Part shown: one piece after another, positions 46,754 to 57,787 of the stretch
How the letters are laid out: each line of letters starts with the position of its first letter
How positions within the stretch are numbered: the first letter of the stretch is position 1
DNA from: Nodosilinea nodulosa PCC 7104
Lineage (GTDB): Bacteria > Cyanobacteriota > Cyanobacteriia > Phormidesmidales > Phormidesmidaceae
DNA: 64,000 bases
Direction: 5' to 3'
Assembly: GCF_000309385.1 (NCBI RefSeq)
Contig: NZ_JH976537.1
Span: forward strand, 647,426-711,425
Notes under the pieces: model-generated
The model's input: only the letters and a program-made list of their open reading frames with translations
Databases searched by the model: none
What the model was told of the DNA's origin: nothing
Program-made: the position numbers and the translations under genes

Positions 46754-46899
46754 TTGACTGACAAACGTTCTGATGTAGGTTGGTGTTGAGCGAAGCGAAA
46801 CCCAACGCCAGATCCAACGCCAGTAACGGATTTGTTGGGTTCCGCTAAAGCTGACCCAACCTAAGGCAGCATAAGGGTTTCAAGGGTTTTGTCAGTCAA
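46754..46899. repeat. Palindromic element at the 3' end of the STAND gene
   Basis: Terminal arms TTGACTGACAAAC and TTTTGTCAGTCAA match as inverted repeats. Inside, TGTAGGTTGG..CCCAACG and GTTGGGTT..CCCAACCTA form a second inverted pair, of the common cyanobacterial CCCAAC/GTTGGG repeat type. The STAND gene's TGA stop lies in the right-hand arm. Confidence 0.75.
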
Positions 46900-49655
46900 C
46901 CAGGGGCGGAGGTTTCCCGGCGGGCGTAGCTGACCAGGTAGTCGTGCACCAGCTGGTAGCGATCGAGGGGAATGTCGGGCAGCAAAAACACCAGGCCCGA
47001 CCCCACCAGAATATCGAGCACCAGATCGAGTTGGTCAGACTGGTACTTGGCCCCGCGCAGGTTGAGTTCTTCCTCCAGGTCCTCGCGGCTCTTTTGGGGT
47101 CGGTAAGAGCGGCCTTCGCGATCGATGTCGGTGAGCAGGTACAGCACCCTGTGGGCCAGGCTGACGTTTTCTTCGCCGCAGTCATCGAAAACCGTGCCCA
47201 AAAAATTGTGCACCAGGGTTTCTTTAGGGTGGTTGCCCAGGGCCAGGTAGCCGGTCAGGGTGGTAATATCCTGGCGCTGGAGCTGCGCCCCCACCACCTG
47301 TAGCTCAATCGGGCGCACCTCGCCGATCGCCGTAGCCAGGTCGGCCACCAGGCGATCGATCAGGGCAATTTCGAGGTAAAAGTGGGCATCGTCGGTGAGG
47401 CGGCGAATTAGCGCCCTGGCGTCGTCGGCCCTGAGGTTGCCCAGGTAGTAGCGGTAGTCGCGGCTGAGAATATCGTTGTTGAGAATGTCGAGGTCGAAGC
47501 CGCGCTCGATTTCGAGCAGGTAGTGGAGGTAGTCCTCCCGCAGGGCCAGCACCACCTTCAGGTAGGGGGCGTTTAGACAGTCGATTAAAAACGCATAGAA
47601 ATCGCGCCGCTGAAACAGCTCTACCGCCTCGACAAAAAATTCCTCAAACTGGTCGAAAATTAGCACAATTTGCCGATAGCTCTGCTCGGTAAGGGTTTTG
47701 AGCCGGGCAATCAGATCGCTCTGGTCGATGGGGGCCGCCGGGGGAATGCCGTCGCTGGCGTTCTGCTGGTGGAGGGCGTGGGCCAGGGCCTGGTTGACCT
47801 CATCGGGCCAGTCGCGGTAGCCCTTGACCAGCACCGCCAGCGTCGATCGCCCTTCCGGAAACGACTTGCCCAGGGCGGGCACCAGCCCGGCGTAGAGAAT
47901 GGAGCTTTTGCCCACCCCCGACGGCCCGTGGATGATGATCAGCGGGTAGCGGGCCTGCTCTAGGCGATCGGTCAAGGCCTCCACATCCACCTGGCGACCC
48001 GAGGCCTGAATTTCGGTGGCCAGCAGCACCTGGTTCGCCCGATCGCTGGCGGTGGTGGGGTAGTCCTGGGGCTGAATTTCGCCTGCGCCGATGAAGGCCC
48101 GCAGCCGAAAGCGGGTGTCGACCTGGCGCTGCTTGAGCTTGACCCCAAAGGCCGCCCGGTAGCTTTTGCGCTGGTAGTACTGCTTTTGCAGGGTTTGCAA
48201 AATGCTGCGGTAGAGGGGTAGATCGGCTATGGGATCGGTGTTGAGATAGGCGTCTTCGAGCAGGGCAATGGCGGCGTTGGGCTGGTTCTGGGCAATGTGT
48301 ACCCGCCCCAGCAGGTAGAGGTACCAACCCCGCTGGTACTGGTTGGCCACCGTCAGGTCTGCCGCAGGCGCGGCGGCGCTGTCTGGGTCGGGTTCAGCGA
48401 TCGCCCCTGCCCTGGCCGCCCCCGCCCCGATCGCCCCCGCGATCGTCAGAATCTCTAGCGCCCGCTCGGCCTGGGTTTGGGCGGTGGCGGCATCGCCCTG
48501 GGCCAGAGCGACCTCCGCCAGGTAGCCGTGGTCGCGGGCCAGGCGCACGGGGTCCTGGCGGTGCAGCGTCAGGCCGGTTTCGGCGGTGCGGGCCAGGGCG
48601 GCCCAGGCCCTCAGCTTTTGCTGCACCTCCGCCAGGGCGTGGATGAACTTGCCCACCAGATCGGGCTGCTTCAGGTCGCGAAAGATGCGCAGACAGGCAG
48701 AAAAGTAGCCTTCGGCCTTGTGCAGCATGCGATCGTACACCACCCGCTGCAGTACCGCCTGGCTGCGGCAGGTGGCCCCCAGGTAGAAGAGCAAAACAGC
48801 CTGTTTTTGGCGGGGGGTGGGGGGTGAGGGGGTGAGGGGGTGGTGAGGGGATGGGATGGGGGGATGGGGGGATGGGGCGTGGGGGAATTTTTGCCAGTAG
48901 ATCAGGCTTTGCTCAAAGTGGTAGCGGGCGACATCGAGATCGCTGCGGCCCAGGGCGTCGCGGCCCTTGAGAAAATCGAGGCTGGCTTTGATTTCGTTGT
49001 CGAGGGGGGCCTGGCTTTGGGCGATGTCGGTCAGGGCAAACTCCAGCTCGGTGCGCAGGGCCGAACCCTGGCTGTAGGCCGAGGCTTCGGTGTGGTGGGG
49101 GCTGTCGTCGCCCAGGGTGAGCATGGTGGCAAACAGGTCGTTGGCGCTGGCGTGCAGGGAGTAAATCAGCTCGCCGGGGGGGTACTCAAAGGCAATGGGG
49201 GCGGCGGCAAAGCTCTTAAAGTCTGGGGCGTGGCGGTTGAGCAGGGCCAGGGTGCGATCGCTCACCCACAGCACCACCGGGAACGGCAGCGCCTTTGGAA
49301 ATGCGTTGCGCCCCAAGTTGGCGGCTTTAAACACCGCCGTCACATTCTGCACCTGCTCTAGCCCCGTCACCATCAGGGCGGCGGGCGGGTCCGCCAGGGG
49401 TTCGGCGGTGAGCGCCTGCAGCAGCGTGGCCATATGGACGGGCAGCGATCGCTCTAGCAGGGGGCGCTCGGCCAAAGCCGCCGTGGTTTGCAGGTGGTCC
49501 ACCACCAGGTGCTGCAAGCGCGAGTAGTTGCAGCGGGCCAGCACTAGCGAAAACCGATGGGGCCTGAGGGTAATCGCCCGCTGAAGCTCCGCCAGAGAGA
49601 GCTGATTGTGGGCCAATATTTCGGCTGGGCTAGCGCCGCCAGCGACACCGCTCAT
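46896..49655 (-). CDS. STAND-type NTPase (nSTAND1-like) with helical N-terminal region
   Basis: 919 residues from MSGVAGGASPAEIL, whose ATGA overlaps the stop of the upstream ATPase gene. The first part (about 10-200) resembles an AAA-associated or TIR-like sensor region that I cannot name, and a TPR-like helical section follows (about 290-500). The NTPase has P-loop HGPSGVGKSSILYAG (near 575) and Walker B IVLIFDQFEEFF (near 665). A Pro/His/Ser-rich insert (about 257-282) is encoded by a minisatellite. No WD40 or TPR sensor follows the NTPase, and the stop falls in a repeat arm, so the C-terminus may be truncated. STAND proteins act as signalling or defence switches. Confidence 0.8.
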   Translation of the reverse strand: MSGVAGGASPAEILAHNQLSLAELQRAITLRPHRFSLVLARCNYSRLQHLVVDHLQTTAALAERPLLERSLPVHMATLLQALTAEPLADPPAALMVTGLEQVQNVTAVFKAANLGRNAFPKALPFPVVLWVSDRTLALLNRHAPDFKSFAAAPIAFEYPPGELIYSLHASANDLFATMLTLGDDSPHHTEASAYSQGSALRTELEFALTDIAQSQAPLDNEIKASLDFLKGRDALGRSDLDVARYHFEQSLIYWQKFPHAPSPHPPIPSPHHPLTPSPPTPRQKQAVLLFYLGATCRSQAVLQRVVYDRMLHKAEGYFSACLRIFRDLKQPDLVGKFIHALAEVQQKLRAWAALARTAETGLTLHRQDPVRLARDHGYLAEVALAQGDAATAQTQAERALEILTIAGAIGAGAARAGAIAEPDPDSAAAPAADLTVANQYQRGWYLYLLGRVHIAQNQPNAAIALLEDAYLNTDPIADLPLYRSILQTLQKQYYQRKSYRAAFGVKLKQRQVDTRFRLRAFIGAGEIQPQDYPTTASDRANQVLLATEIQASGRQVDVEALTDRLEQARYPLIIIHGPSGVGKSSILYAGLVPALGKSFPEGRSTLAVLVKGYRDWPDEVNQALAHALHQQNASDGIPPAAPIDQSDLIARLKTLTEQSYRQIVLIFDQFEEFFVEAVELFQRRDFYAFLIDCLNAPYLKVVLALREDYLHYLLEIERGFDLDILNNDILSRDYRYYLGNLRADDARALIRRLTDDAHFYLEIALIDRLVADLATAIGEVRPIELQVVGAQLQRQDITTLTGYLALGNHPKETLVHNFLGTVFDDCGEENVSLAHRVLYLLTDIDREGRSYRPQKSREDLEEELNLRGAKYQSDQLDLVLDILVGSGLVFLLPDIPLDRYQLVHDYLVSYARRETSAPG
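48808..48886. repeat. G-rich minisatellite inside the STAND gene
   Basis: GGGGTGAGGGGGT and GGGGGATGG units, in frame with the gene, encoding a Pro/His/Ser linker. Confidence 0.75.
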
Positions 49656-50959
49656 GGCCGGGGCTGCTGGGCCAGCCAGCTGCGGTAGCGATCGGTTTCG
49701 GCCAGCAGCGGGTTGAGGCCAAACCAGCGCCCCTGGGCATCGCGGTACTCGTACAAAAACAGGCTGCGCACCAAAATGTTGTAGTCTTCGTCGCCCTGCA
49801 CATCCTGGCGCGAGACCGCCTGCAAGATCAAATCCCACTCCTGGTCGCTGATCAGGCCCATCAGGCTGTCGCGCTCGTTGCGAATTACCGCCTCCAGGGT
49901 GTCGCGCAAAAAGGGCGGGTCCTGCTTGCGCAGGCAGCCGTCCAGCAGCCGAATCAGGTTGCGCATGTGGCCGCCGCTGACCTGGCAGAGGCGATCGAGG
50001 GTGGCGATGTCGTCAAAGACTTCCCCCACCGCATCGATGCGCTGGTTTACGTTCAGCTCGGGAAAGGCGCGAATCAGCACCATCTGCCGCAGCAGGGCCA
50101 TGCCCGGCTGGTCGGGGTTACCCTTGCGATCGTGCACCGGCACCATGGGCAGCACCATGGGGTTGGTGCCAAACCGATTTGAGAGCCGCACCAGATCGTT
50201 CGAGAACATCAGCTCCAGCGGAATGGTGTAAACCAGGTGGCAGTCGAGCTGCTTGAGCTGTTCGCCGCGATCGACAAAGATATACTCCGACTGCAACCGG
50301 CCTTGGGAGCGCAGGGCGCTGTCGATGCGATCGAGGTTGTCCATGATCACCACCAGGCGGTTTTTGCCCTGCTGCTGGAGGCGATCGTTGGCCGGGGTCA
50401 GCAGCTCGTCATTGATGGCGGTGATAATGCTGCGGGTGCGCGGCTCCAGGTATTGGCGCAGCTGACTGCGCATGTCGGGGCTTTGCTTGGCCGAGGCGGT
50501 GATGCTGGCAATGCCCGCCGAAAAGCTCACGTCAGAGATTTCCATCGGGGTGCGCAGGGTATCGGCCAGGTTTTGAAACAGGCCTTGCAGGTAGGTGGGC
50601 CGGGTGGCAATGCCAATCTTGTCGAGGTGCTGGCTAATGTTGTGGGCAATGCTGAGCAAAATGTCAGAAATTTCCACATCGGCCATTTCCAGATCGCGGT
50701 CTGACTCAAAGTAGACCACCTCATAGCTGCGCCGCACCAGCGCATCTTGCAGGCGAAACAGCTCCGTCGATTTGCCGCAGCCAATGTGGCCCGTAAAAAG
50801 CTGCGTGGTGGGGCGATTGCGGGCCAGGCGGGCGATTTTGCGCTCTAGCTCCTGCACAATGTCGCCGCCGCGCACCGCCGAAAAGTCAATGTAGTAGCGC
50901 TTGCCCCGCAGCGGCTGGGTGGGGTCGCAGGCGTCGTAAAACTGCTGTAAATCCAGCAT
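49652..50959 (-). CDS. P-loop ATPase partnered with the STAND gene
   Basis: 435-residue AAA/STAND-like ATPase. It starts MLDLQQFYDACDPTQPLRGK. P-loop FTGHIGCGKSTELFRL (about 55-70), Walker B RLVVIMDNLDRID (about 203-215), and a C-terminal helical region with QVSGGHMRNLIRLLDGCLRK, the usual sensor-2/winged-helix transition. It lies upstream of the STAND gene with a 4-bp overlap, so the two proteins are made together. It probably acts as a regulatory ATPase in an inducible complex with the larger protein; signal and output are unknown. Confidence 0.82.
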   Translation of the reverse strand: MLDLQQFYDACDPTQPLRGKRYYIDFSAVRGGDIVQELERKIARLARNRPTTQLFTGHIGCGKSTELFRLQDALVRRSYEVVYFESDRDLEMADVEISDILLSIAHNISQHLDKIGIATRPTYLQGLFQNLADTLRTPMEISDVSFSAGIASITASAKQSPDMRSQLRQYLEPRTRSIITAINDELLTPANDRLQQQGKNRLVVIMDNLDRIDSALRSQGRLQSEYIFVDRGEQLKQLDCHLVYTIPLELMFSNDLVRLSNRFGTNPMVLPMVPVHDRKGNPDQPGMALLRQMVLIRAFPELNVNQRIDAVGEVFDDIATLDRLCQVSGGHMRNLIRLLDGCLRKQDPPFLRDTLEAVIRNERDSLMGLISDQEWDLILQAVSRQDVQGDEDYNILVRSLFLYEYRDAQGRWFGLNPLLAETDRYRSWLAQQPRP

Positions 50960-51040
50960 GGGTTATGGCCGTAGGGTTGCCTCCAGGGTATCGCACCGAC
51001 GGCACGCTTATCTATCCTTCAGACGGCCTTCAGACGACCT

Positions 51041-51721
51041 TCAGGCGGCCACCAAAAGATTGATCAAATCGGCTTTCTTCAGCTTTGAAAGCCCTTCTAT
51101 ATCGCGTTTTTTGGCCATGGCCTTGAGCTGCTGCGTATTCAACGACTCCAGCAGGGCGCGATCGGTAACCACCTCAGGCAGAGGTTCTGGGGTCAGGTAA
51201 AATACTTGCTCCAGCGCTTTGAGCTTTTTGCCAGCGGTAATGCGGCAGCCCAGCTTGGTGATCGGCTGCAAGTTTTTCCAATACTGGCGGGGGGCATCGT
51301 CTAGGCGGGCCACCAGAGAAGCCTGGTTAACCCCTTTAAGGGGGCTATCAGCCTGACTCATGAGGTAGTCGATCGCCGCTGCAATCTCCTCCCGGCTGGC
51401 GGCAGAGAGGTTAGTTTTAGGCAACGTTTCCTGGGCCAGGGCCTGGGCGATCGCAGCCGTTTCGGGCGCATCGTCGGCAATAATGCACCACACTTCCTCT
51501 AGTCCAGCCTCGGCGGCAACGGCATAGATAAACGCATTGCCAATCACCTGATACTGGTCGGGCGCAGTTTCTTTGACAATTAAAGGAACCCAGTTGCGTC
51601 CCTCGGGGCCGAGCTGGCTCGCCGCAAATTGAATTAGATATTCGTGGGCCTCAGTGGGTTCGCCAGGTTCAATTTCATCAAAGGGCAGACACATCAGGTT
51701 GCCAACATCTGAAAGGCTCAT
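51041..51721 (-). CDS. ParB-like protein with C-terminal SAP/Rho_N-like motif
   Basis: 226 residues. NWVPLIVKETAPDQYQVIGN followed by AFIYAVAAEAGLEEVWCIIA (about 43-82) has the look of the ParB/sulfiredoxin N-terminal fold, but I see no clear GERR motif or helix-turn-helix. The C-terminal LNTQQLKAMAKKRDIEGLSK then LKKADLINLLVA (about 193-226) is a SAP/Rho N-terminal-type nucleic-acid-binding element. It begins at the stop of the ParA gene (TAATG, 1-bp overlap). Unlike the ParA gene it has host-like GC and a HIP1 site. ParB identity is by eye; it might instead be an adaptor. Confidence 0.65.
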   Translation of the reverse strand: MSLSDVGNLMCLPFDEIEPGEPTEAHEYLIQFAASQLGPEGRNWVPLIVKETAPDQYQVIGNAFIYAVAAEAGLEEVWCIIADDAPETAAIAQALAQETLPKTNLSAASREEIAAAIDYLMSQADSPLKGVNQASLVARLDDAPRQYWKNLQPITKLGCRITAGKKLKALEQVFYLTPEPLPEVVTDRALLESLNTQQLKAMAKKRDIEGLSKLKKADLINLLVAA

Positions 51722-53097
51722 TAGAGAAAGTACTCCTTCACAAGATTTAAATATTGCTCACGAGCAGGCTTGAACGCAAAAGCCGCAGGCATATGCATAA
51801 AATCGGCCCTAGAAATGCAGGCCATATAGGGAATGGAAATCATCTTACAATTCTCATGCCCCTTGCTAGATTTGGGATAAAAATAGGGCTTTAGATCAAA
51901 ACCATTGTGATTTATTTTTGCGTCTTGGATGATTTTGGCAATTGCTTGACGCATAAGCAGAATGGCTGGACTAGTGGGCTTAAAAGTATTATTCATGAAA
52001 ATTGGCAGTGCAATAGGGCCAGATTCGCCAAATTGCTGCCGTTCTTTTTGCATCTCAGGAATAAACTGAGTGATAGCTGTTCCTGCATTTTGTAGAGAGT
52101 GTAAATTATCGTGCCGTGCTGGGATCAAAACAGCGTCAGCAGCAAAAATAGCTTTCTTTGCAAAAAGCCGCCAATTAGGAGGAGCATCAATAAGGATGTA
52201 GTCATAATCATCTTGAACTGATTTCAGCACTCGCCTTAAAGCATGCAGCTTAAGATGCTGACTAAGCTTAGCTTCGTCAAATAAATTTGCTAGCTGCTCA
52301 TCAGCGAGAATAATATCGAATGATGGAGGCTCTTTAACTCTTGGATGTTCTAATTTATGCTCTGTGATAACTTCTCGGATGTTAGGATCTTTGCTCTTAA
52401 GAATGTTAAGAAATTTACCCTGAAATGGTGCTAGGTTAAGTGCATCACCCAAATCACTTTGGTTGGGATCAAAATCTACAATAAGCACTCGCTTTTTCAG
52501 GAGGGTTAAAGTTGTAGCTAAATTTAGTGTTGTAGTGGTTTTTCCTACGCCACCTTTATTATTGTAAATCGCAACTATCAGTGCTCGACTTGGGCTTTCT
52601 ATACGCCGCCTCAAATCTTTGATGATACTTTTGACATCATTGTCTAGCGACAGGCAAGGTGTTACTGGATAGACTACCTTGCCATGCTTGTGGAATAACT
52701 GAACATGCAGCGAATTTGTTATAATTCCCCACTTCACAGATTTAGAGGCTGGTGCCAGAAGATATTCTTTAAGCTGTTGAGATGCTTCTCGATAATGAGT
52801 ATGATTTGAATCTTCTAAGTTTTTAGATCGTCCCTTAACCTCCACGTAGAGATAAGGATGCTTCAAGCTTTGCGAAAAAATGTCTTCACCAATATTTTTG
52901 CGGGCAGCATAGTCAACTTTAGGCTTTTTCCCGACTGGGAATTGGCTAAATCTTTCGGAATGCCCAAAACCTAAAGCTTCTAAAAATGGTGGAGCAAATG
53001 ACTCCATTACTTGAGCTTCGGCAGCATCTGGCTGAAGATGTTGTAGGGCTTGCTCTAAATTCATGTGTAGATCGCATGGCTTTAACCCCACGTACAT
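51721..53097 (-). CDS. ParA-family ATPase fused to a PD-(D/E)XK (HsdR_N-like) nuclease domain
   Basis: 458 residues. The N-terminal domain (about 20-130) has KPKVDYAAR (Asp62) and YLYVEVKGRS (Glu86-x-Lys88), then EASQQLKEYL (Gln108), the core of an HsdR N-terminal/PD-(D/E)XK nuclease. From about 170 a ParA/MinD ATPase follows: YNNKGGVGKTTTTLNLA (deviant Walker A, 181-188), VLIVDFDPNQSDLGDAL, and YILIDAPPN. GGAG precedes the ATG at 53097; Met12 is an alternative. Two 60-base samples counted by hand give about 40% GC, against 62% in the neighbouring ATPase gene, and no HIP1 octamer is present, so it looks horizontally acquired. It is coupled to the ParB-like gene. Function is unknown; defence or partition. 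Confidence 0.75.
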   Translation of the reverse strand: MYVGLKPCDLHMNLEQALQHLQPDAAEAQVMESFAPPFLEALGFGHSERFSQFPVGKKPKVDYAARKNIGEDIFSQSLKHPYLYVEVKGRSKNLEDSNHTHYREASQQLKEYLLAPASKSVKWGIITNSLHVQLFHKHGKVVYPVTPCLSLDNDVKSIIKDLRRRIESPSRALIVAIYNNKGGVGKTTTTLNLATTLTLLKKRVLIVDFDPNQSDLGDALNLAPFQGKFLNILKSKDPNIREVITEHKLEHPRVKEPPSFDIILADEQLANLFDEAKLSQHLKLHALRRVLKSVQDDYDYILIDAPPNWRLFAKKAIFAADAVLIPARHDNLHSLQNAGTAITQFIPEMQKERQQFGESGPIALPIFMNNTFKPTSPAILLMRQAIAKIIQDAKINHNGFDLKPYFYPKSSKGHENCKMISIPYMACISRADFMHMPAAFAFKPAREQYLNLVKEYFL

Positions 53098-53260
53098 GGG
53101 GGAATCTCCGGCACCAGAACATCCGGGGCAGAGTTTATGAAAGCTTTATGCAACTATTTTTAGCTAAGAGTCGTCTTGCGGGGCCGCGATCGCCCCATGC
53201 ACCCATACCAATCGACCCAGCGCGATAAGATAGGCCAGGTCAGTTACTCCATAGAACTTC

Positions 53261-53482
53261 ATGTCTATTTCCAAAGCCGAGACCAAGCAGCTCCTAGAGC
53301 GAATGATATTTGACGCCACCGATCCTCAAGACTGGGTGCAGGATGTGTGGGGCCTCAGTCCGCTAATGGGCGACAGCGCCGCCAAGCTGCTAGAGGCCTT
53401 CTACATCCTCATCGACTGCTGCCCCGACGAGCAGCTCGACAACATGGTCAAGGGGCTATATCGCGATCGGCTGGAATTCTAA
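53261..53482 (+). CDS. Small conserved-looking hypothetical protein
   Basis: 73 residues, soluble, Asp/Leu-rich, starting MSISKAETKQLLERMIFDAT. WVQDVWGLSPLMGDSAAKLL and CCPDEQLDNMVKGLYRDRLE suggest a small helical protein. No domain recognised. Base composition matches the host, unlike the adjacent ParA gene. Confidence 0.6.
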   Translation: MSISKAETKQLLERMIFDATDPQDWVQDVWGLSPLMGDSAAKLLEAFYILIDCCPDEQLDNMVKGLYRDRLEF

Positions 53483-56389: not shown

Positions 56390-57787
56390 CTACTTGTTCG
56401 GCGGGACAAAGGGATCGGTGGCACCGTTGCCATTTCCGTTGTTGCCGCCGGGGCCAACGCCATTGTTGTTGCCGGGGTCACCGCCCACTCCGACGCCCAC
56501 GCCGTTGTTGCCGCTACCAACCCCAACGCCAACACCGACGTCAACTCCGCCGCTGCCGACGCCAACACCAGCCCCAACATCGACCCCGCCGCTGCCTGCA
56601 CCAGCTCCGGCCCCGGCCCCAACATCGACCCCGCCGCTGCCAGCCCCAGCCCCAGCCCCGGCCCCAACATCGACCCCGCCGCTGCCAGCACCAGCGCCGC
56701 TACCTGCTCCACTATTCCCAGAGGAAATTGGCGATGGCCCAGGAATCCCTCCAGGGCTGCCGCCCTGGCTAGGAGGCATAGGCGTGGGAACACTGCCGCC
56801 AGAACCCCCAATGGATGTGGGCGGCTGCGCGGGCTGTGACCCGACTGTAGGCACCGAGGGAATTGTTGTAATGAGGCCATCCCCTGGGGTGAGTACCCCG
56901 CGCAGGATTGAAATAGGAGCCCCGCCAGAGCTGGCGGGAGACAGGCCCCAGGGCTGTTCAGAGGCAATATTGGCGTTGCTACCCATGCCAATCAGGTCTG
57001 GGTTGAGGGTAATGGCGTCTGTAAAGGGAGTTTGCTCCTCCAGCGCCTCTAGGGTCTCCTGGCGCACGCCTTCAAGAGCTGGCCCAAGGGGAGATTCTGC
57101 GTTGGGGTTATCTAGCTCAAGCCCCTCTACTAGCGGACTGGTTTGGTAGAACATGGGCAGGTCAAACTCAACCACCTGCACCTGATTATCTTGAATCAGG
57201 GCCATTTGCCCGCCGTAGAGGGAGTACTCAGTGGCTCCGCAGGTGTCAGAACCGCCGCAGCCGCTGGTGGTGATGGTCATCGGCCCGGCAGGATTGTTCG
57301 TGAGGGCCATGACGACGGTTAAATCGCTGTCTGGGATATATCGAACCACCACAGCAGAACCCTGAATGCCGGTTACCGCGCTGGGAGTTTGAACATTGGT
57401 GCGCCCCTGCCCTGGCGGAATGAGCAGCAGAACGGTGCCGTTGGTGAGGCGAAAATTGCGGGTGTTGGGCACAAACCGAAAGGTGGCCCGCTCACCAACT
57501 CGTGCCAGGGAGCCATCGTTAAAGCGCAGGTCGGCTTGGGAAGCGGCGGCGGTGCGCAGGGCATCGCCGATGGCGAGGACGTCGGAAATTCTGGCGGTTC
57601 GGGCCTGCCGTCCGCGGGGGATAAGCTCCACCCGGTTGCGCAATGCCTCGACATCGGCCCGAGTCAGGGAAACGCTGGCCTGGGCGGGTAAGCCAGCCAA
57701 CACCAGGGCAATTAGGGAGGCTAGCCCAGTAACTTTAGGGACAAAATGCTTAAGGCCCTGCTGGGCAAATTTGCTGGTGTTCAGCAT
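56390..57787 (-). CDS. FecR-domain protein with glycine-rich repeat tail
   Basis: 465 residues with an N-terminal signal peptide (TGLASLIALVLAGLPAQA). The FecR-like beta domain (about 40-160) covers ALRTAAASQADLRFNDGSLA and NFRLTNGTVLLLIPPGQG. A unique linker follows, then a tail from about 365 made of GAGSGGVDVGAGAGA-type repeats and Gly/Asn runs. FecR domains sense or bind extracytoplasmic signals; cyanobacterial members are often repeat-bearing exported proteins. The tail may be a flexible spacer or polymer-binding stretch (inference). Confidence 0.82.
   Translation of the reverse strand: MLNTSKFAQQGLKHFVPKVTGLASLIALVLAGLPAQASVSLTRADVEALRNRVELIPRGRQARTARISDVLAIGDALRTAAASQADLRFNDGSLARVGERATFRFVPNTRNFRLTNGTVLLLIPPGQGRTNVQTPSAVTGIQGSAVVVRYIPDSDLTVVMALTNNPAGPMTITTSGCGGSDTCGATEYSLYGGQMALIQDNQVQVVEFDLPMFYQTSPLVEGLELDNPNAESPLGPALEGVRQETLEALEEQTPFTDAITLNPDLIGMGSNANIASEQPWGLSPASSGGAPISILRGVLTPGDGLITTIPSVPTVGSQPAQPPTSIGGSGGSVPTPMPPSQGGSPGGIPGPSPISSGNSGAGSGAGAGSGGVDVGAGAGAGAGSGGVDVGAGAGAGAGSGGVDVGAGVGVGSGGVDVGVGVGVGSGNNGVGVGVGGDPGNNNGVGPGGNNGNGNGATDPFVPPNK
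56440..56700. repeat. Tandem coding repeat in the FecR tail
   Basis: Imperfect 42-48 bp units (CCAACATCGACCCCGCCGCT...) encoding Gly/Val/Asp/Ala repeats. It is a protein-level repeat, GC-rich, and gives long open frames on the other strand that are artefacts. Confidence 0.7.

Follow-up and report, generated by a model that had tools for sequence, protein, structure and literature searches.

A ParA ATPase that carries a predicted HsdR_N-type nuclease domain forms a conserved, mobile cyanobacterial gene pair with a ParB-like partner and is exchanged without it

Genes and domains at the locus

The stretch analysed here (the window) comprises 64,000 nucleotides of Nodosilinea nodulosa PCC 7104 (contig NZ_JH976537.1, positions 647,426 to 711,425) and carries two adjoining genes on its minus strand; the upstream gene encodes a ParA-type ATPase fused to a predicted PD-(D/E)XK nuclease domain, and the downstream gene encodes a ParB-like protein ending in a Rho_N motif. 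Across the 143 genomes compared, including the window's own (G-codes), and the loci fetched (L-codes), this pair is a real, conserved and mobile unit, and its ParA is exchanged between loci without the partner. A sequence-only reading that preceded this analysis had placed the two open reading frames (ORFs) correctly, at 51721..53097 (458 amino acids) and 51041..51721 (226 amino acids), and the TAATG overlap that it described is present, the two frames sharing one base.

The true start of ParA is probably 53064, because most of the eleven closest homologues, which are 446–448 residues long, begin aligning at residue 12 of the longest ORF. The resulting protein (51721..53064, minus strand) has 447 residues and the same start methionine as these homologues. 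Residues are numbered in this form, in which D51, E75, K77 and Q97 correspond to Asp62, Glu86, Lys88 and Gln108 of the 458-residue ORF, the positions singled out by the sequence-only reading. Residues 161–447 (51724..52584, minus strand) form a ParA/Soj-type ATPase domain with the deviant Walker A motif KGGVGKT, that of the ParA ATPases of ParABS partition; the window protein matches the Pfam profile AAA_31 with an E-value of 2.9e-32, its AlphaFold model has a predicted local distance difference test score of 93.2, and a fold search returns Soj as a close structural match of the ATPase domain. All 113 aligned relatives (the proteins of 430–480 residues among the 120 matches listed of 4402) keep the complete P-loop noted earlier and also K170, the signature lysine of ParA. 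A hypervariable linker (residues 141–160; 52585..52644, minus strand) joins the ATPase to the N-terminal domain, with a mean entropy of 1.42 bits among 13 alleles of the genus, versus 0.81 bits in the N-terminal domain and 0.65 bits in the ATPase domain.

The guanine-plus-cytosine (GC) content of the ParA gene is 40.5% (34% at third codon positions), against 61.2% in the neighbouring ATPase gene, values that bear out the contrast of about 40% and 62% estimated earlier from short samples. The hint of a recent foreign origin that had been drawn from it does not stand, as low GC is general across ParA loci (0.39–0.47 at 30 of the 30 compared, and lower than the flanks at 27 of them), so the AT-richness is long-standing; it would fit circulation in an AT-richer pool. 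The lack of HIP1 octamers in the gene had also been pointed out correctly, and is too weak to serve as evidence, with just 2.1 octamers expected at the density of the window. The divergent intergenic region 5′ of ParA (53065..53260, no strand) contains short sequence islands that are common to loci in different settings, as seen in an alignment of 13 upstream regions.

The predicted nuclease domain

The N-terminal domain of ParA (residues 1–140; 52645..53064, minus strand) contains E16, D51, E75-x-K77, Q97 and Y101, and thus has the D...E-x-K residues of PD-(D/E)XK and HsdR_N nucleases. D51, E75, K77 and Q97 show no variation among the 113 aligned relatives; for E16 and for Y101 the count is 112. 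A further sample has 83 rows, of which 77 are locus alleles, five are plasmid copies and one is a reference that repeats the window; in it, the aspartate is found in 82, the glutamate and the lysine in 83 each, and the glutamine in 80. A second subfamily, retrieved with a Pseudanabaena plasmid copy 24% identical to the window ParA (114 rows, namely 113 relatives and the query), has the aspartate in 114, the glutamate in 113 and the lysine in 114, and plasmid copies that are merely 24–26% identical still carry D and E-x-K.

The HSDR_N_2 profile matches 15 of the 29 relatives scanned at E <= 0.1 (best E-value 1.6e-8), and it is because of these matches that the domain is assigned to the HsdR_N type, the window protein itself scoring below the curated cut-off of HSDR_N (E-value 0.06). 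The HsdR_N-like fusion proposed by the sequence-only reading is upheld, as a prediction, by the conserved residues and by the profile matches of the relatives, and not by the window protein's own HSDR_N score. In the ParA model, the domain consists of a helix (residues 16–30), two strands (38–42 and 50–54), a short helix (63–66), a strand (72–76), a longer helix (89–102) and a last strand (112–116); this modelled order fits a PD-(D/E)XK core, with D on the second strand, E-x-K on the third and Q on the next long helix. The match lists of the fold search with the whole of ParA are occupied by rows for the ATPase part, so that a missing nuclease row in them carries no weight. Taken together, the conserved residues and the profile matches speak for a predicted nuclease.

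The ParB-like partner

The partner (226 residues; 51041..51721, minus strand) begins with a domain of the ParB/Srx fold (residues 8–99; 51425..51700, minus strand), and so has the N-terminal fold of the ParB proteins of ParABS partition, while its score against Pfam ParB_N lies under the cut-off. The domain has no GERR box: neither GERR nor GERK occurs in any of 108 partners, and the box is present in the other ParB of the window's genome (L064). Residues 100–185 are largely helical, and structural matches in this part resolve no helix-turn-helix (HTH). The protein ends in a Rho_N motif (residues 186–226; 51044..51166, minus strand; Rho_N profile, E-value 1.5e-6), in agreement with the SAP/Rho_N-like motif recognized earlier.

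Linkage and distribution of the pair

Of the 143 genomes, 51 have a ParA match at E <= 1e-30, 50 have a partner match at E <= 1e-6, and 47 have both; this tight linkage substantiates the earlier coupling of ParA with a ParB-like protein. Each of the three genomes that hold the partner alone has a partial or weak match. The loci fetched through the partner number 81, one being from IMG/VR and the others the 80 best of 143 on genome contigs; ParA lies directly upstream in 75, and the partner match begins 0–27 bases past the end of the ParA match. In two of the remaining loci no ParA was matched (L134, and L113, whose partner starts 87 bases from the edge of the locus), one has an unrelated ParA only (L121), and in three the best ParA match stops early (L103, L109 and L132). 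Counted from the ParA side, all of the 30 best loci (L001 and L007–L035) carry the partner.

Frame-broken or fragmentary ParA copies stand beside a partner match at L257 (10638–11974) as well as at L103, L109 and L132, and the copy in G017 is broken near E-x-K; such copies could reflect decay or sequencing error. One of the four genomes with ParA alone contributes a nuclease–ParA without a detectable partner at L063 (7376–8767), and the gene next to the partnerless nuclease–ParA of G117 presumably encodes a protein resembling ribosomal protein S2, as judged by reading alone.

The distribution is patchy, with no ParA match (E <= 1e-30) in 92 of the 143 genomes and in 9 of the 26 members of the genus, some of these genomes being incomplete. 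Among the matches listed, the named entries that span most of either protein are cyanobacterial, with two exceptions, a metagenome-assembled genome labelled Tatlockia (L145) and P0293, which is labelled Verrucomicrobia beside a Leptolyngbya label; no search was aimed at other phyla.

Mobility and neighbouring genes

When the neighbourhoods of the window and 20 fetched loci are compared, ParA is present in 21 of 21 and the partner in 20 of 21, and no other neighbour cluster is present in more than six. The pair occupies about five settings within the genus, as grouped manually. G004 has an empty site, the genes found on either side of the pair in G008 and G010 lying just approximately 85 bases apart there; the same site is empty in G015 (approximately 124 bases), yet the pair is present elsewhere in that genome. 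Loss in the genomes with an empty site is a possible alternative to insertion, and neither a transposase nor terminal repeats were identified at the cassette. Several copies lie on megabase contigs (6.1 Mb in G000, 3.8 Mb in G025, 5.5 Mb in G011, 8.2 Mb in G027 and 5.5 Mb in G086), which are probably chromosomes.

Directly downstream of the pair in the window, on the same strand, lie two STAND-type NTPase genes that, as called, overlap each other (49652–50959 and 46896–49838, together 46896–50959), one matching nSTAND1 (E-value 9e-33) with a weak TPR match, and the other nSTAND5-like below the cut-off. They were considered as a part of the system and rejected, since the first adjoins the pair in just two of 20 loci (L048 and L049), and elsewhere other genes replace them. 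On the other side, 53261–53482 encodes a conserved protein of 73 residues that has no significant Pfam match; its gene is divergent from ParA and borders the insertion site, and the protein is 83–94% identical where it is found in related loci. Further away, 56390–57787 encodes a protein whose glycine/serine-rich, repetitive C-terminus is built of repeated GAGAGSGGVDVGAG-like units.

Exchange of ParA alone

Sequence comparison indicates that ParA alone is exchanged between loci, with three clean cases, two of which also have the support of approximately unbiased (AU) tests. At the locus that G008 and G010 share, the flanks are 93.7 and 96.4% identical in nucleotides and the partner 94.6%, versus 71.2% for the aligned ParA; within ParA, the identity is 59–79% by windows of 120–150 bases, with sharp edges at the start of the gene and near its end. 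The same pattern is observed in L107/L114 and L046/L052, with flanks of 88–97%, partners of 93 and 89%, and ParA of 69 and 68%, the divergent stretch in both also taking in the upstream intergenic region. As other close syntenic pairs (L143/L144, L101/L106 and L128/L130) keep ParA at 93–96% identity, the divergence is due to replacement and not to a uniformly fast clock, and ordinary fast evolution was rejected for the three cases; for two of them the trees conflict as well.

The trees comprise 14 genomes, without L107/L114, and use as markers M17 and M20, two genes that neighbour the pair in the window. The ParA tree forms the groups G000+G008, G010+G011 and G015+G016, and the trees of the partner and of the markers form G008+G010 and G016+G007. 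In AU tests, the ParA alignment rejects G008+G010 (p = 1.3e-4) and G016+G007 (p = 7.7e-6); conversely, G000+G008, G010+G011 and G015+G016 are rejected by the partner (p = 3.1e-64, 2.4e-4 and 0.0076, respectively) and by the markers (p = 9e-41, 4.6e-4 and 0.016, respectively). G015+G016 survives the Shimodaira–Hasegawa test with both the partner (p = 0.068) and the markers (p = 0.23). Among 13 genomes of the genus, the mean amino-acid identity is 70% for ParA, 83% for the partner and 88% for M17, and 94% for M20 (12 genomes).

Plasmids, viral contigs and phage proteins

The pair is also carried by two mobilizable Nostoc plasmids, each of which has a short integrase-like gene close to it and further partition genes besides; both plasmids encode ParM, and p4 additionally has canonical ParB genes adjoining ATPases. 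Divergent pairs are present on three further plasmids, ABRG53g (12.6 kb), pPg_01 and pLBA; the pair of ABRG53g includes the sole annotated AAA/ParA-type gene of that plasmid, which also has a replication gene. In addition, the pair is found on an IMG/VR contig of 58 kb, where genes for a Rad52-like protein and an IrrE/HTH regulator lie close by.

The partner's ParB-like domain recurs, singly or twice and at 35–40% identity, in proteins of three further IMG/VR records (L147, 5599–6669; L148, 4120–9021; L149, 4840–6291, a copy spanning residues 385–483 of the ORF). Those of L147 and L149 lie near head, portal or terminase genes, and a domain copy in L148 reads SDVGNMM where the partner reads SDVGNLM. 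These records may be fragmentary, and an AAA_31 ParA was not found in them. The partner had no match in the annotated phage collection, and neither it nor ParA matched a cyanophage record there, the collection's coverage of Mic1 being unchecked; a scan of viral contigs with one of the phage domains retrieved its own contig alone. Polyvalent proteins with ParB domains that phages inject have been described by Iyer et al. 2017 (PMC5512222), a precedent for injected phage proteins that block restriction enzymes is given in PMC12373910, and a Rho_N protein and ParABS of cyanophage Mic1 are mentioned in PMC11237433. The domains found here may be injected as well.

Origin, parS and other partition genes

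The sequence-only reading had named a constant position beside an origin with parS sites as the sign of ordinary partition, and neither was found for the window's pair. A beta-clamp (dnaN-type) gene is located at C1:2.92 Mb, 2.2 Mb from the pair at 0.70 Mb. The genome has another ParA–ParB of the GERR-box type at C1:3.66 Mb, and a ParB also on a second replicon. No inverted repeats of at least 12 bases were found across 50950–53260, and no perfect inverted repeat with 7-base arms lies within 300 bp upstream of ParA in the window. A scan with the Spo0J-type parS consensus, which a parS of another form may escape, gives one site with three mismatches in the window (19472, 32 kb away; at least one site occurs in 7 of 100 shuffles). 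The genome has one site with two mismatches, at C1:620771 and 78 kb from the pair, which does not exceed the reversed-pattern control. Separately, the second replicon, G000:C2 (792,599 bases), encodes a beta-clamp domain of DNA polymerase III (698053–698412) and a ParB_N gene (123009–123257) of its own, which suggests a chromid-like element.

Relation to known systems

The pair resembles ParABS of the Soj/Spo0J type in its deviant Walker A ParA of the Soj fold and in the ParB-fold partner encoded downstream. In contrast to ParABS, its ParA bears a predicted nuclease domain, its partner lacks GERR and has Rho_N at the C-terminus, no parS was found, ParA swaps without the partner, and the genome has another ParAB. 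The N-terminal domain shares with the N-terminus of type I restriction HsdR (HSDR_N/HSDR_N_2) the D...E-x-K residues, the Q/Y of the following helix and the HSDR_N_2 matches of its relatives. However, the ORF has no superfamily 2 translocase domain, and a ParA ATPase is fused instead; as neither HsdM nor HsdS was detected among the four neighbours scanned (the two STAND-type ATPases, the M17 peptidase and the 73-residue protein), the pair does not have the composition of type I restriction, an HsdR motor with HsdM and HsdS. McdAB carboxysome positioning likewise employs a cyanobacterial ParA fold, and McdA is among the structural matches; the pair differs from it in the fused predicted nuclease domain, the ParB-fold partner and the K170 kept in 113 of 113 relatives, a signature lysine that McdA is not known to have. 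The best match of ParA in a defence library is the PADLOC candidate PDC-M28B (E-value 4.4e-7); the match is confined to the P-loop region (residues 163–210 of the 458-residue ORF), and PADLOC matches neither the partner nor the N-terminal domain.

The partner's N-terminal domain is 35–40% identical to domains of three large phage proteins, and thereby comes close to the polyvalent and orphan ParB-like proteins treated in PMC5512222 and PMC12704722. Unlike these, it is a separate protein tied to a ParA, polyvalent proteins having no ParA association according to PMC5512222. The survey of PMC12704722 is stated there to have used the Pfam ParB_N cut-off, and it probably missed the partner because the window protein scores below it. 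No description of a ParA fused to an HsdR-type nuclease was found in the titles and abstract openings of the open-licence papers listed; the protein of PMC13190303, a membrane nuclease, is unrelated. The exchange of ParA alone and the recurrence of the partner's ParB-like domain in phage proteins are newly described here.

Possible functions

The replacement of ParA alone, by distant versions within closely similar loci, is the reason for which the cassette would seem to defend the cell against phages or plasmids rather than to segregate the cell's DNA, and conflict with mobile DNA is the best reading because the ATPase–nuclease is exchanged alone and partner-like domains occur in phage proteins. 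That the mobile two-gene cassette uses its nuclease to defend the cell against phage or plasmid DNA that enters it is accordingly put forward tentatively, with a chance that falls a little short of even. In such a defence, ParA–ATP dimers would coat the nucleoid, and the partner, via its ParB-like and Rho_N parts, would mark incoming DNA, contact ParA and stimulate its ATPase; a local build-up or release of ParA would then license the nuclease domain to cut the marked DNA. By exchanging ParA alleles, the cassette may evade inhibitors or switch targets, and the partner-like phage domains may be decoys that engage ParA. In its complete form, this would be a class of immunity in which a nucleoid ParA gradient carries the nuclease, the ATPase cycle triggered by the partner on foreign DNA switches the PD-(D/E)XK domain on, phages deploy ParB-domain decoys, and hosts swap ParA and keep the partner, a combination that is doubtful as a whole.

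The chief rival to defence is element maintenance, in which the pair would be a partition or maintenance module of cyanobacterial plasmids or phage-plasmids that chromosomes have captured, its nuclease removing rival replicons or processing the DNA of the element. The two mobilizable Nostoc plasmids, ABRG53g, with its replication gene and a divergent pair that has the same D and E-x-K, the related pairs of pPg_01 and pLBA, and the 58-kb contig with its Rad52-like and IrrE/HTH genes all speak for this account. A partition system is expected to keep ParA and ParB matched, and against maintenance stand the exchange of ParA without its partner, the several copies on megabase contigs that are probably chromosomes, the lack of candidate parS inverted repeats at the window's pair, and the ParM and, on p4, canonical ParB genes that the Nostoc plasmids already have; this account is rather unlikely, if to be reckoned with. 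Housekeeping DNA handling, with a nuclease under ParA control that processes transformed DNA or resolves tangled chromosomes in polyploid cyanobacteria, would agree with the slower evolution of the partner, but sits poorly with the patchy occurrence even within the genus, the empty sites of a mobile unit, and a mean ParA identity of 70% against 88 and 94% for the markers, a gap that is partly due to replacement; it is improbable. Least probable is a common positioning pair of the ParAB type, in which the N-terminal domain would be a relic that binds DNA without catalysis: the ATPase domain is indeed structurally close to Soj, but D and E-x-K are strictly kept over wide divergence while the rest of the domain varies, and the GERR box of ParB CTPases is absent from 108 of 108 partners.

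Several observations weigh against defence. Four genomes (G091, G104, G117 and G127) hold ParA and no detectable partner, and the spread of the pair over many cyanobacterial families is compatible with a housekeeping role. The plasmid and IMG/VR occurrences suit element maintenance equally well, and the partner-like phage domains may be ParB-type modules of the usual kind instead of decoys. The partner tree differs from the marker tree in places, so that the pair moves too. A search of PADLOC 2023 gives matches of ParA around the ATPase region alone and none of the partner at E <= 1. Near the pair, 81 PADLOC families (E <= 1e-5) were matched from 149 ORFs at 30 loci, versus 67 from 142 ORFs in 20 control regions, a comparison in which the control genomes match the test genomes in part and 25 families are listed per set. 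There is accordingly no clear excess that would point to a defence island; some neighbours match restriction-type or candidate defence models such as RmrA and mREase_IV, and control ORFs match, for example, SspB. The defence or DNA-handling module envisaged by the sequence-only reading thus gains from the mobility of the cassette, the ParA-only exchange and the partner-like phage domains, all of which fit conflict, and has no clear backing from nearby defence genes; of the neighbourhoods that it had proposed to search, plasmids do carry the pair, while PADLOC matches around it are not clearly above the controls.

Implications

The pair combines known parts, and would be categorically new if ParA dynamics prove to license the nuclease. 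The segregation and the restriction of DNA, which are usually separate, would then be united in one polypeptide conserved across many cyanobacteria, and self and non-self DNA would be told apart by the spatial dynamics of an ATPase instead of by methylation or guides. Even as a maintenance module, a ParA with a predicted nuclease would be a testable cause of plasmid incompatibility. Cyanobacterial genetics is limited by transformation and plasmid barriers, and the pair therefore offers a concrete target for deletion.

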